39,722 nucleotides of DNA from Candidatus Poribacteria bacterium (GTDB lineage Bacteria > Poribacteria > WGA-4E > GCA-2687025), in the NCBI GenBank assembly GCA_016866785.1, contig VGLH01000019.1, positions 1 through 39,722 on the forward strand. The letters are read 5' to 3'. Every line of letters begins with the position of its first letter. The stretch's first letter is position 1. The notes under the pieces were generated by a model. That model did not search any database and was not told the origin of the DNA. It saw nothing but the letters and a program-made list of their open reading frames with translations. Positions 30,641-39,722 of this stretch are shown here, one piece after another. Made by a program: the position numbers and the translations under genes.

Positions 30641-33600
30641 ATGCGATACCGGCCCGACGAGACGCCCGTTGAGCAGAAATCCTACTCGGGGTTCTTTTTT
30701 CTGCTGGGCGTCGTCTCCCTGTTGGTGGCGGGGTGGGTCACGTTCAACGAGTTCCAGACCCGAAGACCGTGGAAGAAGTACCAGTCCGACTTCTACGAGC
30801 TGGAGCGCGTCCGGCTCAAAGCCGCCATCGATGACCTGGAAGCGGAGCTGGAGTCGCTGGGCGTCGATCCGGGCGATATCGACCAGATCGTTGCGCTCGA
30901 TACGTCCCTGTCGCCTCGCGAAATCGACGCCCTCGTCCGAGAGACGATGGTATCGACCTACGGAAGCGTCGAGGCGTTCAACGCGGCGTGGGCTAAGATC
31001 GACATCACCGAAGGCGGCGGGAAGGTCGCCCACGAAGTCGTCGACCGGGGATTCACGGACGCTTTCTGGCATAACGAGCTGACACTCGCCGACCTCGAAC
31101 GCATGTACCACGAGGAAGACGGCAAGCTGCGCATTCAGAGCGCGCGCCGTGACGCCGAGTACTACGAATACTCGACCGACCGCGATGCCGAGTCGGAGAA
31201 ACGCCGCTTCGAACGCGCCGACCGGTTCATGAACGAGCGCATCCAGGGACGGGATGCCGCCATCGCCGCGTTGCGCGGTGCCACCGATACGATGCGCCTA
31301 TGGCTCGCCGACTTCCAGAAGGCGAAGGGAGCCGCACAGACGCGCAAGGAGCAAGAAGGACTTCAGGGCTATTCCGGCGAAGTCATCGCACTCGCCAAGG
31401 ACCTGGATGCCGCGCGCGACCAGCTTGGGCTCGTCCAGTACAACCTGATCGGGCTCCTGACGCAGTTCAAGGAGGCGAAGCGCCCCCAGATCCGGCAGGT
31501 CATCCTCGGCGAGGTCGCCCACGAGACGAACAACGTCGATCGCTGCGCCACTTGCCACATCGTCGCCGACAAGGACGGCTACGACATGTGGATCAGCGAC
31601 GCGGCGTCCGTGCTCGACACCGGGGCTCTCGTCAAGGCGACGCCCGTCCCGGACCGCCTTGGAACCTTCACGCCGAATCCCGCGCGCGTCGTCGGCGATC
31701 TGAGCGAGCTCGTCCTGAGCCGTCCCGCCCAGAAGGGCAAGCTGTGGAGCGAGCCGCTCGTCTACATCAACGGAGTTCGCGTCTACCCGGAGCAGGGGTT
31801 CCGCGTCTCAGGCTGGACCGTGCGGTGGGATACGGAGTTCGCTCAGGCACAACTCACCGGCGGCGCGGTCATCGAAGTCCTACAGGCATATCCGAAGCTC
31901 TACCAATCGCATCCGCATCGGGAAGCGCTTTTCACCGCGCACCCCAACGAGAAGTTCGCCTGCATCACCTGCCACGACGGTCAGGGACGAGCCTTGACCT
32001 GGACCGACGCCGGGTGCGACTTCCGGGAGAATCCGGACAGCCCGAGCTCACCCATGTTCTACTGGGAAGCGCCCGTCCTGTCGAACGCGTCCAAGCTGGA
32101 CGGAGCCATCGAAGCCGCCAAGGCGGTTCTGCCTCAGCAGGCGCTCGCCGAGATCGCGCGCTACCTGCACGTTCCTGTCTCGGTGGTCGTGCGGCATGAG
32201 GCATCGCTCGACACCGACTGGAGCTATCGCCGCACGTCGCACTTCCACCCGAAGGTCAATGGCGAGCCCTTGGGCAGCTTCGCGGAAGCGAAGTGTCGTT
32301 CGTGCCACAACGAGGCGCTGGAGCTCGACTACGCGCCCACGCTCTCCAAGGCGAAGCGGCTGTTCGAGAAGCTGGGCTGCGGCGGATGCCATCTCGTCGC
32401 CGACTACGAGCGACTCCTCTACGATCCGCAGGTCGACTACGTCGAGTACCGCCGAGCCCAAGTGGGCCCGTCGCTCACGTGGGACGCGCGCCTCGCCGCC
32501 GCTTCCCAATCTCCGCCCGGCGTTCCGAATCGCGGCATCGGCTGGAAGCTGAATGAGAAGACCGGGCAGCAGTGGATGGTCAACTGGCTCAAGAACCCCC
32601 GGAGCTACCTGCATGACACGCGGATGCCCAGCTATCGGTTGTCCGACGCCGAAGCCAAGGCGCTGACCGCGTTCCTCTTGGCTCCGACCGGCTGGGGGTC
32701 GAGCATGTCCTCGTCGCCGTTGGCTTCAGCGGGCGAAGCCGGGGGTTTCCAGTTGGTGGCGGACACATCGGCGACCTCCTCGGCGGATGTGCCGATCAAC
32801 CCGGACAACGTGCGCAAGGGCGAGCTCCTCGTCGTCAACACGGGTTGCCTCGCGTGCCACCAGATCCGCGATTCGCAGACGGGCACCATGCGCGGGAACA
32901 CGTTCGGACCCAACCTGTCGATGGCGGGCTCCAAGCTGAGCCGAAAGTTCCTCGAGCAGTGGCTGGAGAACCCGCGCACGTACGACCCGAAGACGATCAT
33001 GCCCGCGATGTTCGACAACGTCTCTCCGACGGAGCGGCGTGACCAGATTCGAGCGATCACCGACTACCTGCTGGCGCAGAACGACACGTCATGGATGCGG
33101 AGCAGCGAGTCCTTCGAGATCACGCCGAAGCTCATCGAGCAGGGCGAACGCATCTTCGGACCCTCTGGCAAGGGCTGTGTCGGCTGCCACTACTTCGAGG
33201 CGGACATGCCGGACGGATCGGGAGGCACGCGCAAGGTCGGCGGAGCCGCATGGCTGGGGCAGCAGATCGGACCGGAGCTCACCGATTTCGGCATCAAGAA
33301 GCCCGAAGTGCTCGACTTCGGATTCGCGAAGCACCGCGAAATCGCCTACTTCGGTGACCGCAACGCCCTCCTGTGGGGCGAGCTCCTGCGCGAGAACGAA
33401 GACGGCTCCATCGTCGTGCGCACCGTGGCGAACCAGGCGGATCCGAACGCGGCAAAGGGATTCTTCTACAAGAAGGGCGAGGACCTGACGGAAGTCTCCA
33501 TCGCCGCCGACATGCCGCGGAGCGTCACGAAGGTCGAGAACACCTGGCACGACTGGGCGTTCAACAAGATCAAGGAGCCGAACCTCTACGCGACGGAGGT

Positions 33601-34708
33601 CAACTCCATCGCGCAGAACATGCCGAACTTCTATCTGTCCGACGACGAAGCGGCTGCGCTGCTCGTGCTCCTCAAAAGCTTCAAGGGCGGGTCGCATGTC
33701 CCGGAGGCGTATCGCGACCACCTCACAACGCGCGAGAAGCGCATCGAACGCGGCAGGATGCTCGTCACGCGGTACAACTGCGTCGGGTGTCACGTCGTCG
33801 AGGAATCCATCGCAACCGTCGACGGACGCCTGATCAAGGGCTGGGAGATCGGCAAGCACGTCCTCGATGACCCGCTGCTGCCGGCGGTCCCGGGTCCCGA
33901 CGGCATCCTCGGCACGGACGACGATGTCCGAGGTGGATGGGCGGTTCCCGTGTCGCCCTTCGGCGCGATGACGAACGTGCGGATGTCCTATGATCCAGCG
34001 CGTCCAAACGAGGATGTCCAGAAGTCGCAGATCAGCCTTCCCGCGGAGGCGCTGGAACTGCGCAACCCGAGCGGCACGTTCGTCGGGTTCCACAGTGTTG
34101 GGAGCCCTCTGTCGTTCATGCGCGGCGGGTACATGTACGAGGCTAACGGACATCGCGTCCAAGTCCAGCACGGGCCCGTGCTGACGTTCGCCGGGAAACG
34201 GTTCCGACCGGAGTGGCTCTTCGACTTCATCAAGCGTCCCTATCCGGTGCGGCAGTATCTGTTCATGCAGGGGCAGAGCCGCATGCCGCTCTACCACTTG
34301 ACGGACAGCGAGGTTTCCGACATCGTCGCCTACCTGATGGCGCTCGTGGACGAGCCGTACCCCTACGAGTCGATCATCCCGTCGCCGCAGGCTGATTTGG
34401 TCGCCATGGGCAAAACGATGTTCCTCAACGAAGCCCGCTGCGCGTCGGGCGCGTGCCATCCGTCGACGGCTCCCAAGCCTGAGAACCGAGCGCCCGATCT
34501 CGTCTCGACGGCGCGTCTCAAGCCGACATGGGTCAAGGAGTGGATCGCCAATCCCGAAGCCTTCTGGCCCGGGAACGGCATGCCCTACTTCCCATGGGAT
34601 ATGGGCGGCTCGGCGATCTATCCGCAGTACGCCGACGGCAACGTCGATACGCAGATGAACGCCCTGCGCGACTATGTGCTGGCGCTGGGCAAGCCGCGCC
34701 AGCGATAG
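30641..34708 (+). CDS. 1355-residue membrane-anchored c-type cytochrome with eight haem sites
   Basis: One N-terminal transmembrane helix (17-33), then a charged coiled-coil stretch (about 45-290), then periplasmic haem domains. CxxCH sites are at 302, 441, 552, 580, 736, 846 and 1047, and an eighth site, CASGACH (1267-1273), is a CX4CH variant. Candidate axial methionines follow the last five: M662, M787, M994, M1215 and M1314, each in a MP context typical of class I cytochrome c. The first three haems lack such a Met and may be bis-His. Sites 552 and 580 are close together. Residues 1086-1096 (DGILGTDDDV) resemble a calcium loop. A Ser/Ala linker (685-715) divides the protein. It probably moves electrons in the periplasm for a respiratory or quinol-linked complex. 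GAGGAGATAG precedes the ATG. Confidence 0.85.
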   Translation: MRYRPDETPVEQKSYSGFFFLLGVVSLLVAGWVTFNEFQTRRPWKKYQSDFYELERVRLKAAIDDLEAELESLGVDPGDIDQIVALDTSLSPREIDALVRETMVSTYGSVEAFNAAWAKIDITEGGGKVAHEVVDRGFTDAFWHNELTLADLERMYHEEDGKLRIQSARRDAEYYEYSTDRDAESEKRRFERADRFMNERIQGRDAAIAALRGATDTMRLWLADFQKAKGAAQTRKEQEGLQGYSGEVIALAKDLDAARDQLGLVQYNLIGLLTQFKEAKRPQIRQVILGEVAHETNNVDRCATCHIVADKDGYDMWISDAASVLDTGALVKATPVPDRLGTFTPNPARVVGDLSELVLSRPAQKGKLWSEPLVYINGVRVYPEQGFRVSGWTVRWDTEFAQAQLTGGAVIEVLQAYPKLYQSHPHREALFTAHPNEKFACITCHDGQGRALTWTDAGCDFRENPDSPSSPMFYWEAPVLSNASKLDGAIEAAKAVLPQQALAEIARYLHVPVSVVVRHEASLDTDWSYRRTSHFHPKVNGEPLGSFAEAKCRSCHNEALELDYAPTLSKAKRLFEKLGCGGCHLVADYERLLYDPQVDYVEYRRAQVGPSLTWDARLAAASQSPPGVPNRGIGWKLNEKTGQQWMVNWLKNPRSYLHDTRMPSYRLSDAEAKALTAFLLAPTGWGSSMSSSPLASAGEAGGFQLVADTSATSSADVPINPDNVRKGELLVVNTGCLACHQIRDSQTGTMRGNTFGPNLSMAGSKLSRKFLEQWLENPRTYDPKTIMPAMFDNVSPTERRDQIRAITDYLLAQNDTSWMRSSESFEITPKLIEQGERIFGPSGKGCVGCHYFEADMPDGSGGTRKVGGAAWLGQQIGPELTDFGIKKPEVLDFGFAKHREIAYFGDRNALLWGELLRENEDGSIVVRTVANQADPNAAKGFFYKKGEDLTEVSIAADMPRSVTKVENTWHDWAFNKIKEPNLYATEVNSIAQNMPNFYLSDDEAAALLVLLKSFKGGSHVPEAYRDHLTTREKRIERGRMLVTRYNCVGCHVVEESIATVDGRLIKGWEIGKHVLDDPLLPAVPGPDGILGTDDDVRGGWAVPVSPFGAMTNVRMSYDPARPNEDVQKSQISLPAEALELRNPSGTFVGFHSVGSPLSFMRGGYMYEANGHRVQVQHGPVLTFAGKRFRPEWLFDFIKRPYPVRQYLFMQGQSRMPLYHLTDSEVSDIVAYLMALVDEPYPYESIIPSPQADLVAMGKTMFLNEARCASGACHPSTAPKPENRAPDLVSTARLKPTWVKEWIANPEAFWPGNGMPYFPWDMGGSAIYPQYADGNVDTQMNALRDYVLALGKPRQR

Positions 34709-34846: not shown

Positions 34847-35248
34847 ATGAGCCGGGCACCGATTCGGGTCGTCCTGTGCGCCCTTGTGTTCGCAGGATGT
34901 GCTGCGCGGGAAGCGAACTGGTACCGCATCTACGATGCGCGCGCCGAGTTCGAGGCGCTCCGAAGCGCGCCCGGCGTCGAAACCATCGAGGCGGAAGTCC
35001 GAGACGCCAAAGAGCTGCTCGATCGCGCCGAGCGAGGCCTATCGAAGAAGCGCCCAGACGACGCCGCCGACCTTTCCGAGATCGTCCTGCTCCGCATCGA
35101 GTACGCGCGCGCCGTGGCGCGACGCAATCTGTCCGAGCGAGACGCCGTTGCCGCCGAGTCCGCGCTCGACGCGATCTCGAACGCCGCTGAAGCGCAGCGC
35201 GAACGGCTTCAGCAGGCTCAGGCGGAACTCGCCGAGCTGACGCCATGA
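34847..35248 (+). CDS. Small coiled-coil lipoprotein (DUF4398-like)
   Basis: A 133-residue protein with a signal peptide and lipobox (LVFAGC, Cys18) followed by a long helical, Glu/Arg/Ala-rich region (about 30-130) likely to form a coiled coil. It is similar in style to the DUF4398 segments found in OmpA-linked lipoproteins. GGTGAG precedes the ATG. It overlaps the OmpA gene start by four bases (ATGA), so both are translated together and probably form an envelope complex that spans the periplasm. I do not know the precise family. Confidence 0.75.
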   Translation: MSRAPIRVVLCALVFAGCAAREANWYRIYDARAEFEALRSAPGVETIEAEVRDAKELLDRAERGLSKKRPDDAADLSEIVLLRIEYARAVARRNLSERDAVAAESALDAISNAAEAQRERLQQAQAELAELTP

Positions 35249-36993
35249 TGCCAGAGACGCGCACAGAAGCGCGCCGCGCCCGGCTCCGCAGGGGGAAGGG
35301 GAATCGACCCTACGTCGCGGATTGGCTCCTGGGCGTCCTGACGTGTGTGTGGGTCGTAGCCGGATGCGGCTCCTCGATCAAGCCGCTCGTCGTGCAGCAG
35401 GCGCTCGACGACGCGCAATCCGCCTTTGTCGCAGCCGGGAACGTCGACGCCGCCGAGCTTGCCCGCCAGGACTATCGGCAAGCGGAACGACTCCTTGCCG
35501 AAGCCGTGCGGCAGCAGCAGGATGGCAACCAGCGCGAGAGCTATTACCTCGCTCTGCGTACGCGCCATCAGAGCGATGTCGCCCGCGCGAAGGCGGAAGA
35601 GCAGAAGGTACGCCAGCGCGTCGATCTCGCGCTACAAGGCTTCCTCGAAGCGCGGCTGGAAGAAGCCTCACTCCGGGTCGAGACGGCAGATACCGAACGG
35701 CAGATCGCCATCACCTATCGCCAGCGCGCTGAGCAGGACGCCCGCGCCGCCCGCGCTGAAGCCGAAGCTGCCAACGAGAACGCTCAAGCGACCTCGACCG
35801 ATTCCGCGATCGCCATCGCGAAGTCCCGGTCCGAAGCCGAGATCGACAAAGCCGAGTTCATGCTGAGCCTCGCCACGGAAACCGAAGCCGCCGTCTACGA
35901 CCTACAGGGACACACGGAGACAACGCACCTGGTCCAAGAGGCGAAGCGCCTCCATGGCGAAGGGGACTATCGTGCCGCGCGGCTGAAAGCGATGGACGCC
36001 TACCGTGTTGGCGACGAGACTCGCCTCACCGCGATGACCAAGCGAGACGCCGCTCGACGCCAGCAGGCGCAGTCGCGGATCAACGGCGCGACGAACGCCG
36101 CGAGCGAGATCGGCAAGGCGGCGCTGCTCATCGAGATGGCTCGTAAGGCGGGGGCTCCCCTCCACGCGAAGCAGGCGCTCGACGAAGCCGCCGCTGCCCA
36201 TCAGCGCGCCACTCGAATGATGGAGACGGAAGCGTTCTCGGATGCCTCACAGGCAGCCATCCAAGCGCAGGCGTCGGCGGAACAGGCGCGCGTGACCGCC
36301 ACGGCAAGGGCCGAGCAGATCAAGCTGCAGCGAAAGAAGGAAGAGCGGATCGCACAGGTCAAAGACACGATCCTGCGAGTCCAGCGTGGGAAAGACGGCA
36401 TGGACGACTTCACGCGATCCGTGTCCGCGAGGCAGCTCGAATCCGTTGACGGCTTGGTGCGCCTAGCAGACAAGCTGATTTCGGAAGACAAGGTGGACCT
36501 CGCCCTCGTCAACGCGGAGCGCGCCGAGGCTCTCATCCAGGAAGCCATCCAGTACGTCAAGGACGGTCAAGCGGCGGAGAGTGACGTGCTGAACCAGGCG
36601 AAGGGGATCGAGAACGTCCAAGCGTTCGCTACGGGGAGGGGAGTCGTCCTGCGGGTCACCGGAGACGCCTTCCCCGTGAGCCGGAGCGATCTGAGCAAGG
36701 AGTACTTGCCGGTCGTGACGAAGATCGTCCAGGTCGTGCGTCCCTACGCGGCGCGGTATGGGATCGCCGTCGAGGGGCACACGGACCGATCCGGGAACGC
36801 TGACACGAACCTGCGGCTCTCGAAGGCGCGTGCGGCGACCCTCGCGCGACATCTGACCGAGGCGCTGGCGACGCCCTCCGCGCAAGTGAGTTCCGAGGGG
36901 TACGGCGACACGCAGACGATTCCCGACATCCCACCAACGAACGCGAAGAACCGCCGCATTGAAGTCATCCTCCTTACGCGCGAGCGTCCGTGA
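35245..36993 (+). CDS. OmpA-family lipoprotein with a long coiled-coil region
   Basis: A 582-residue protein. The N-terminus is basic and leads to a hydrophobic segment with a lipobox (VVAGC, Cys41). A DUF4398-like helical region (about 50-110) and a very Ala/Glu/Arg-rich coiled coil (about 115-400) follow. The C-terminal OmpA peptidoglycan-binding domain (about 465-580) has GHTDRSG near residue 510 and SSEGYGDTQ, with the diaminopimelate-binding Asp and Arg both present. It should tether the outer membrane or a periplasmic scaffold to peptidoglycan. The start is the ATG at 35245 in ATGA overlap with the preceding lipoprotein. The next gene overlaps its end by 35 bases. Confidence 0.88.
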   Translation: MMPETRTEARRARLRRGKGNRPYVADWLLGVLTCVWVVAGCGSSIKPLVVQQALDDAQSAFVAAGNVDAAELARQDYRQAERLLAEAVRQQQDGNQRESYYLALRTRHQSDVARAKAEEQKVRQRVDLALQGFLEARLEEASLRVETADTERQIAITYRQRAEQDARAARAEAEAANENAQATSTDSAIAIAKSRSEAEIDKAEFMLSLATETEAAVYDLQGHTETTHLVQEAKRLHGEGDYRAARLKAMDAYRVGDETRLTAMTKRDAARRQQAQSRINGATNAASEIGKAALLIEMARKAGAPLHAKQALDEAAAAHQRATRMMETEAFSDASQAAIQAQASAEQARVTATARAEQIKLQRKKEERIAQVKDTILRVQRGKDGMDDFTRSVSARQLESVDGLVRLADKLISEDKVDLALVNAERAEALIQEAIQYVKDGQAAESDVLNQAKGIENVQAFATGRGVVLRVTGDAFPVSRSDLSKEYLPVVTKIVQVVRPYAARYGIAVEGHTDRSGNADTNLRLSKARAATLARHLTEALATPSAQVSSEGYGDTQTIPDIPPTNAKNRRIEVILLTRERP

Positions 36994-38044
36994 CCACCGC
37001 TCCCGCGCGCGGGGCTGCGCCGTCAGTCTGCTCGCCCCGGTTGCGCTCCTCCTCTGGCTCGCCTACTACGTGCTGACGGTGGACCCCGTCCCGGTCACCG
37101 AATCCGTGGGTTCCGCCCCGACAGGTTCCGCGTCAGTGCCCGTGCGCGATGCGACCGTCGCTGGAGCCTTCGGACCCAGGTTCCCCGGAGCGCGCGCCAT
37201 CGTCCAGACAGCCGCCGGGTTGCACACGACGCGTGTCATCGGATGGGACGCGGATCATCACGCCCTCCGACTGGAGGAACCTCTGCCGTTCGACGTATCC
37301 GCCGACCAGCCCGCGACGGTCGCGTCGACCGACGTCGCCACAGCGGTCGCGCGCTTCGATGACCGCATCGGGCTGCGACGGTTCCCGGCGTCCGATTCGC
37401 GCATCATCGCGTACACCTCGCAGGGCATGTCGAAACCCGTGATGCGACGCGCTGGAGAGTGGGTCAAGGTCGAGATCCGCTCGCCGGTCGAGGGATGGGT
37501 TCCTGCGGATCGCGCCATTTCCGTCGACGAGGGCGAGGTCGCCGACCGCGCGCTGATGCCCGCCAACGTGCCCGTGCGCCGCACGCCCTACGCCGACGAA
37601 GCCCTCGTGCGCTGGGAGGGAAGGATCGTCACCAAGCGTGTGCAGGAGACTACGGACGGGTCCCGGCAGCACGAAATCAACGCCGAGGCTCCCAACGGCG
37701 ACCACCGGACGTTCACGGTTCCACAGACGGCTTGGAACGCGTTCGCGGCGACGGACTACATCATCGACCGCGAGGGCAAGGGCATCTCCAAGGCGGAACC
37801 CCCGATGGCGTTCACGCAGCCGTCGCCACCCTATGAGGTCATCGCGCGCGAAGGCGCGTGGCTCCGCATTGAGCTCCAAGACCAGGGATGGGTCACGGAC
37901 GACTCGTGCACGTTCGACGTCGTCTTTCGCTACAAACTGAGCCGCCGTCAGACGCTTCGTCGCTGGCTGTTTCGAGCGCCGGTCGTCGGTGCGCTTGCTG
38001 AACGCCTGACGAACGCCTACTTCCGCGTCCCAACCGGAAGCTAG
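36959..38044 (+). CDS. Membrane protein with two SH3-like domains
   Basis: A 361-residue protein with a basic N-terminus and one transmembrane helix (about 25-41, VALLLWLAYYVLTV). Two SH3b-like beta-barrel segments follow: DSRIIAYTSQGMS...WVKVEIRS..EGWVPADRA (about 144-186) and YEVIAREGAWLRIELQD.GWV (about 296-319). Bacterial SH3 domains usually bind peptidoglycan or proteins. The start is a TTG at 36959, overlapping the OmpA gene by 35 bases; the in-frame ATG/GTG starts further on would lose the helix, so TTG is preferred. It completes the lipoprotein/OmpA operon and fits an envelope-anchoring role. Confidence 0.7.
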   Translation: MKSSSLRASVRDHRSRARGCAVSLLAPVALLLWLAYYVLTVDPVPVTESVGSAPTGSASVPVRDATVAGAFGPRFPGARAIVQTAAGLHTTRVIGWDADHHALRLEEPLPFDVSADQPATVASTDVATAVARFDDRIGLRRFPASDSRIIAYTSQGMSKPVMRRAGEWVKVEIRSPVEGWVPADRAISVDEGEVADRALMPANVPVRRTPYADEALVRWEGRIVTKRVQETTDGSRQHEINAEAPNGDHRTFTVPQTAWNAFAATDYIIDREGKGISKAEPPMAFTQPSPPYEVIAREGAWLRIELQDQGWVTDDSCTFDVVFRYKLSRRQTLRRWLFRAPVVGALAERLTNAYFRVPTGS

Positions 38045-38536: not shown

Positions 38537-39722
38537 ATGAGCGATGAGAGGAACCCCGATCTCGACAACCGACCGCGCACGACGTCCGGTCCCCTCAAGG
38601 GCGATTTTGTCGCGCCGGCAGAAGCAGACGACAGCGACGAACGCTCGGACGCGCTGCCCCAACAAGAGGAATTCTGGCGACCGCCGGTGCGGTTCGGTAG
38701 CGTGCCGGTCGAGAAGGAACCGCTGGGTTGGGACCGACGCCTAAAGTTTCGCAAACTCTTCCCGCAAGTCATGTTGCCGTTTCAGGTCGTCGAGCGCGTC
38801 TCGTTCGGCAATCCCGCGCTGGAACCGAACCGTTTGTTCTGGGGCGACAACCTGCACGTCATGCGCCAACTACCGAACGAGAGCATTGACCTCATCTACA
38901 TTGACCCGCCGTTCTTCTCCGGTCGGCAGTACAACGTCATCTTCGGCGACCAGAACGAACTGCGCTCGTTCTCCGACATCTGGGAAGGCGGGATGCCGGG
39001 TTATCTCATCTGGTTGAATGCCCGGCTCTACGAGATGAAGCGATTGCTCAAGAAGACGGGGAGCATTTACGTTCATCTCGACTGGCACGGGGCCCCATAC
39101 GTCAAAGTTGAGATGGACAAATTATTCGGATTCGAGAACTTTCAGCGGGAAATTGTCTGGGACATCAGCGTACTGTCGAGATTCAAGACCCGCGCGAACA
39201 ATTGGATCCGCGGACACGACACTTTGCTTTTTTATACGAAAGGGAAGGATTTCATATTTAACAAGCAAAGCACGGAGCACCGAGCTGAATACAGCGCACG
39301 ATTCAACAAAATTGATAAGGACGGACGGCGATTCTTTGACGGACGAGGGAATCGTAGGTATCTCGATGAAGTCATCGAACAGGGAAAGGCGATAGGAGAT
39401 GTCTGGAGCGACATAATGTCGTTCCAACAGATACCGACGTCCAAGGAGCGTATTGGATACCCAACTCAAAAGCCCGAAGCGCTTGTTGAAAGAGTAGTGA
39501 AAGCAAGCTGCCCGGAAGGTGGCGTCGTCGCTGACTTTTTTGCGGGGGGGGGGTACAACACCCGCTGTCGCGCAACGGTTCGGACGACGCTGGATCGCCT
39601 GCGACCAGTCGCGCGTCGCGGTCGCCATCATGGCGGATCGGCTGGCGCGTGGCGCCGAGCAGTTGCTGCTCGATCACACGACCACGCCGATACCCGACTT
39701 CACGGTCGAGCACTGGGGCGTC
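38537..39722 (+). CDS. Beta-class DNA methyltransferase (N6-adenine/N4-cytosine), frameshifted at a G10 run, 3' end outside window
   Basis: A site-specific methyltransferase that would modify host DNA, probably with a restriction partner outside the window. Motif IV DPPF is at residues 123-126 and motif I DFFAGGG at 333-339. Motif IV before motif I is the beta-class order. ERIGYPTQKPEAL (305-317) and DVW.DI are typical. Just inside motif I a run of ten Gs (39544-39553) has one base more than the family reading needs. The +1 frame from 39555 continues TTPAVAQRFGRRWIACD and runs to the window end, while the annotated frame turns to nonsense. Bases about 39110-39500 are AT-richer than both flanks. 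GGAG precedes the ATG at 38537. Confidence 0.85.
   Translation, partial: MSDERNPDLDNRPRTTSGPLKGDFVAPAEADDSDERSDALPQQEEFWRPPVRFGSVPVEKEPLGWDRRLKFRKLFPQVMLPFQVVERVSFGNPALEPNRLFWGDNLHVMRQLPNESIDLIYIDPPFFSGRQYNVIFGDQNELRSFSDIWEGGMPGYLIWLNARLYEMKRLLKKTGSIYVHLDWHGAPYVKVEMDKLFGFENFQREIVWDISVLSRFKTRANNWIRGHDTLLFYTKGKDFIFNKQSTEHRAEYSARFNKIDKDGRRFFDGRGNRRYLDEVIEQGKAIGDVWSDIMSFQQIPTSKERIGYPTQKPEALVERVVKASCPEGGVVADFFAGGGYNTRCRATVRTTLDRLRPVARRGRHHGGSAGAWRRAVAARSHDHADTRLHGRALGR

Follow-up and report, generated by a model that had tools for sequence, protein, structure and literature searches.

An octahaem cytochrome c from Poribacteria as the probable cytochrome c1/f equivalent of a b6f-like complex encoded on a separate contig

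The stretch of DNA analysed here (the window; 39,722 nucleotides) lies on contig C19 of a 4.3 Mb genome of Candidatus Poribacteria bacterium (G000) and encodes a cytochrome c of 1355 residues. Judged from sequence comparisons, and with a probability of about 90%, this protein belongs, as the octahaem c subunit, to a Rieske/cytochrome b complex of the b6f-like type, where it would be functionally equivalent to cytochrome c1 or f; the genes for the remaining subunits appear to lie on a different contig of this genome, C95. The pairing of the unlinked octahaem gene with the C95 subunits is proposed on the grounds of homology and co-occurrence. The window contig matches other contigs of the genome in GC content and tetranucleotide composition, which makes contamination via this contig unlikely, and the genome carries genes with matches to PF01578, a cytochrome c assembly family.

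Haem sites and their ligands

The original prediction of seven CXXCH sites plus one CX4CH site is borne out by the open reading frame (Table 1). The CXXCH motifs start at residues 302, 441, 552, 580, 736, 846 and 1047; when the protein was shuffled 20,000 times, chance motifs averaged 0.005 with a maximum of one, so the pattern is not due to chance. The closely spaced haem pair, 28 residues apart, is likewise found as predicted, at 552 and 580. All eight haem-site columns are conserved in 81 or 82 of 82 aligned relatives, and in the same order.

Three Met-ligated domains had been proposed. Met-ligand positions are indeed conserved, and their number is five rather than three: M662, M787, M994, M1215 and M1314 are present in 82, 82, 82, 81 and 78 of the 82 relatives, respectively. 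By order they pair with the haems at 580, 736, 846, 1047 and 1267, and haems 4–8 are thus most likely His/Met-ligated. Haems 1–3 presumably lack Met ligation. His424 and His434 are likely to be the sixth ligands of two N-terminal haems; since there are only two such invariant free His residues for three N-terminal haems (302, 441 and 552), one sixth ligand is unaccounted for.

The eighth site reads C1267-ASGA-C1272-H1273. It had been noted as an unusual haem site. Among the 82 relatives, four residues between the cysteines occur exclusively in the four sequences of the window family (CASGACH, CSAGACH twice, and CSTGECH); in the other 78, the haem-8 cysteine columns are separated by two. Because eight sites and five Met positions are invariant or nearly so throughout the alignment, the CX4CH element is, as aligned, the canonical haem-8 CXXCH site with a two-residue insertion confined to the window family. 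CX4CH has been counted among haem-binding variants in another genome study (PMC10734462).

Table 1. Coordinates of the octahaem cytochrome c gene, its parts (window positions) and the candidate partner genes on contig C95.
Feature	Position	Strand	Remarks
Octahaem cytochrome c gene	30641..34708	+	1355 aa; probable equivalent of cytochrome c1/f in a b6f-like Rieske/cytochrome b complex
N-terminal membrane helix, 16-38	30686..30754	+	one hydrophobic stretch at about residues 14-38 (hydropathy); helix 16-41 in model
Helical/coiled region, 46-284	30776..31492	+	alignment and model; follows family-shared RRPWKKYQ motif
Haem 1 CATCH, 302-306	31544..31558	+	82/82 relatives
Beta-rich segment between haems 1 and 2, 331-415	31631..31885	+	confident prediction, no Pfam match
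Span with invariant free His424 and His434	31910..31942	+	82/82; putative ligands
Haem 2 CITCH, 441-445	31961..31975	+	82/82
Haem 3 CRSCH, 552-556	32294..32308	+	81/82
Haem 4 CGGCH, 580-584	32378..32392	+	82/82; putative ligand M662 at 32624-32626
Haem 5 CLACH, 736-740, class I cytochrome c domain	32846..32860	+	Pfam Cytochrom_C; 82/82; M787 at 32999-33001
Haem 6 CVGCH, 846-850	33176..33190	+	82/82; M994 at 33620-33622
Insertion in haem-6 domain, 893-968	33317..33544	+	occupancy 0.14 in 78 other relatives
Haem 7 CVGCH, 1047-1051	33779..33793	+	82/82; M1215 at 34283-34285 (81/82)
Insertion in haem-7 domain, 1057-1178	33809..34174	+	holds PGPDGILGTDDD loop; largely window-family-restricted
Haem 8 CX4CH, CASGACH, 1267-1273	34439..34459	+	putative ligand M1314 at 34580-34582
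Rieske	C95:1181-1777		best PDB match 9rk3
Cytochrome b6-like	C95:1861-2628		255 aa
SUIV-like	C95:2661-3995		444 aa

Domain searches and structural models

Several features of class I monohaem cytochromes c recur in the protein, namely three Pfam Cytochrom_C stretches, the five conserved Met residues and, in the model of the C-terminal half, helices flanking the haem sites. A match to SoxX (NCBIfam TIGR04485) scored above its cut-off; it covers residues 735-812, one haem domain of the 1355 residues, and was rejected as an identification. A phmmer search of the protein against the PDB gave no match, and a profile search against the PDB yielded only matches to individual cytochrome c domains and comparably short segments.

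AlphaFold2 models of residues 1-700 and 545-1355, built without haem, have mean pLDDT values of 69 and 72. The N-terminal helix would anchor the protein, with the haems on the positive side of the membrane. Where a long coiled coil had been predicted to follow it, alignment and model point to a helical/coiled region, and the helical stretches 16-72 and 149-265 are mostly modelled with high confidence. A beta-rich domain at about 310-420 is also confidently predicted; the region around haems 2-4 is poorly modelled in the 1-700 model. Foldseek comparison of both half models with the PDB returned nothing significant (best E 0.06 and 0.075).

Relatives and gene order

Genome-wide statements in this section and the next rest on sequence searches of genome contigs. 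A scan with the single protein gave no match, but an alignment-based scan did find relatives. A protein search brought up full-length relatives, 54-56% identical to the window protein, in the other three members of its family; those from across the class are more distant (about 31% identity). Of 85 Poribacteria genomes, 75 have an octahaem relative, in each case a single one; beyond this phylum, relatives were found in Nitrospinaceae, Ignavibacteriota, Chlorobi, Binatia, KSB1 and others.

Neighbouring genes were called with HMMs built in this analysis from the Rieske, cytochrome b6-like and SUIV-like subunits. In 72 of 80 named loci, from several phyla, a gene for at least one of these lies next to that for the octahaem protein. 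In class members the order is Rieske, cytochrome b6-like, petD/SUIV-like and then octahaem; the cytochrome b, petD-type and Rieske assignments in the Poribacteria operons were confirmed by Pfam. Of the remaining eight loci, three belong to the other genomes of the window family, three have the gene at a contig edge, one is L136 and one comes from an unrelated, deltaproteobacterial record (G085). L136 was discounted as an unlinked case, its gene being N-terminally truncated with an apparent transposase gene upstream (judged by eye). G085 has one octahaem gene, and its cytochrome b and SUIV genes are on a different contig; linkage is therefore usual without being required.

Among the 85 Poribacteria genomes, octahaem and SUIV genes are found together in 73 and are both absent from 10, and SUIV is never found alone (Fisher P = 2e-11, kinship ignored). 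The two octahaem-only genomes are G050, where the gene is cut at the contig start, and G004, where the cytochrome b gene ends 79 bases before the contig end.

Other respiratory genes accompany some of these loci. Downstream of the octahaem operon in many Poribacteria (L038-L054, e.g. L041:13050-14969) are a bd-like oxidase subunit gene and several genes for mono- and dihaem cytochromes c, an arrangement reminiscent of the bd-like cluster that has been discussed in Nitrospina. In another Poribacteria family (L083, on G030:C62), a cluster that includes a COX1 gene comes after the Rieske-b6-SUIV-octahaem operon. A further Rieske/cytochrome b cluster (L084:5272-9448, on G005:C61) encodes a shorter relative, a 683-residue protein with eight CXXCH motifs and a WKHYQNEF-type motif after its membrane helix.

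Candidate partner subunits on contig C95

In all four genomes of the window family the octahaem gene is unlinked and its partners lie on another contig. In the window itself, Pfam found no Rieske or cytochrome b among the genes checked, in line with the original prediction that no respiratory partner sits beside the gene; genome-wide, such genes are present on other contigs. A genome-wide search for a quinol-oxidising complex, which had been suggested as a check, located a Rieske/cytochrome b/SUIV cluster on C95. This contig resembles the window in GC content and tetranucleotide composition (r 0.985), and no multihaem gene was found on it. The same split between octahaem gene and Rieske-b-SUIV cluster is seen in G002 (two contigs, 227 and 324 kb), G005 and G004.

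The cytochrome b and SUIV encoded on C95 are 73% and 53% identical, respectively, to the operon-linked Poribacteria version. In a tree, C95 cytochrome b falls among the octahaem-linked cytochromes b. Its Cys61 lies in a TWCMGGIT motif, which we take to resemble the region of the haem cn cysteine of b6. The best PDB match of the Rieske protein is 9rk3 (E 1.2e-35), which is Kustd1480 of Kuenenia (PMC12954380).

Proposed mode of action and alternatives

The original prediction allowed for either a complex encoded elsewhere or a solitary electron wire. The first option has held up: the membrane-anchored octahaem protein most likely serves the Rieske/cytochrome b/SUIV proteins of C95. Quinol would be oxidised at a site on the positive side, with one electron passing to the Rieske cluster and from there to a membrane-near haem of the octahaem protein; that protein would be fixed in place by its single N-terminal helix and by long helices lying against the complex. 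Passing from haem to haem, the electron would then reach a soluble periplasmic acceptor or a terminal oxidase. Assembly with the C95 proteins, the direction of electron flow, the order of haems in the chain and the final acceptor are what we infer in this scheme.

The solitary wire is unsupported. On this reading, the protein would have parted from the Rieske/b complex at the time its gene relocated, and would now act alone, or with other partners, as a membrane-anchored wire. The lack of linkage in all four family genomes and some 300 extra residues, new insertions among them, would fit such a history, but all haem sites, the five Met positions and the helical N-terminal region have been kept, and the same genomes retain Rieske/b/SUIV genes with no other c subunit beside them; this reading is quite improbable. 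Genome G000 also has a second Rieske/cytochrome b cluster, on contig C111 (L079:1251-4354), and the octahaem protein might in principle serve the Rieske and cytochrome b encoded there. That cluster, however, has a multihaem protein of its own alongside, a 505-residue Multi-haem_cyto protein with eight CXXCH motifs, and its cytochrome b lies outside the octahaem-linked group, away from that of C95; C111 was rejected as the partner, and the idea is barely credible.

A different question is whether the complex with the C95 subunits might work mainly in reverse, reducing quinone with electrons drawn from high-potential donors, a mode considered for the bc complex of nitrite oxidisers. The Nitrospina relative has been considered in that setting (PMC3578206); against this, two COX1 genes in the genome fit forward, aerobic flow, and predominantly reverse transport is very unlikely. 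Forward transfer from quinol through the C95 Rieske protein to the octahaem subunit is the preferred reading.

Comparison with known complexes

The domain order had been thought to match no standard cytochrome. This is not supported: the order recurs in 82 relatives, and the kind has been published. An atypical octahaem cytochrome c is encoded beside a b6f-like operon in Nitrospina, with the same operon in Kuenenia and Methylomirabilis (PMC3578206), and Kustd1485 is the large multihaem c subunit of the Kustd1480-1485 complex of Kuenenia stuttgartiensis (PMC12954380). In view of these precedents, the window protein is, by its sequence, a divergent and unlinked member of an already known kind of octahaem cytochrome c.

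With the Nitrospina protein it shares eight haems, their order and, as seen in Nitrospinaceae loci L137, L138 and L142, the operon partners; BLASTP against the L137 protein gives 201 bits (E 5e-57). The Nitrospinaceae protein is about 900 residues long, has CXXCH at every site and is encoded inside the operon, whereas the window protein is longer, has CX4CH at haem 8 and is unlinked. The Kuenenia complex is similar in its large multihaem c subunit, hexa- or octahaem in these Kuenenia complexes, and long complex-wrapping helices, the link being the Rieske match to Kustd1480. The Kustd1480-1485 complex also has a putative NAD(P) oxidoreductase (PMC12954380). The other Poribacteria proteins (about 1036-1094 residues) are orthologous at ~31% identity and have the eight haem sites and five Met; unlike the window protein, they are encoded in a Rieske-b6-SUIV-octahaem operon, followed in several by monohaem c and bd-like oxidase genes, and their haem 8 is CXXCH. 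The likeness to cytochrome f or c1 of b6f or bc1 lies in the presumed position as electron acceptor of the Rieske protein; the canonical proteins are mono- or dihaem, in contrast to the eight haem sites here.

The octahaem Rieske/b complex, known mainly from nitrogen-cycle bacteria, would thus occur in most Poribacteria genomes. Because the gene for the largest subunit can lie away from those for the others, a role as a complex-III-type subunit should be considered for orphan giant cytochromes before they are labelled stand-alone wires.

Remodelling within the window family

Long inserts had been predicted in the domains of the haems at 846 and 1047, and the alignment locates them at 893-968 and 1057-1178, with occupancies of 0.14 and 0.18 in the 78 other relatives. 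Within the window family both insertions are 39-45% identical and less conserved than the haem domains. A calcium-loop-like element, PGPDGILGTDDD, for which calcium binding is putative, lies inside the haem-7-domain insertion. In all, the octahaem protein of the family has about 300 extra residues; its SUIV has about 150, and its Rieske protein a short insertion.

The extra residues and the CX4CH site could mean that the role of the protein is altered in this family. A speculative and rather doubtful extension is that the octahaem subunit was remodelled together with its complex, the SUIV and Rieske insertions included, and that haem 8 may have a shifted geometry or potential and dock an acceptor other than that of the operon-encoded versions. 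The CX4CH variant provides a natural test of how the haem site of a class I domain copes with two additional residues.

Neighbouring genes in the window

Positions 34847-38044, downstream of the octahaem gene, hold genes for a protein with DUF4398, one with an OmpA domain and a weak match to DUF4398, and another with an SH3 domain; these form a cell-envelope group without an obvious connection to respiration. They are followed at 38537-39721 by a gene for a DNA methylase (N6_N4_Mtase), which runs off the end of the window.
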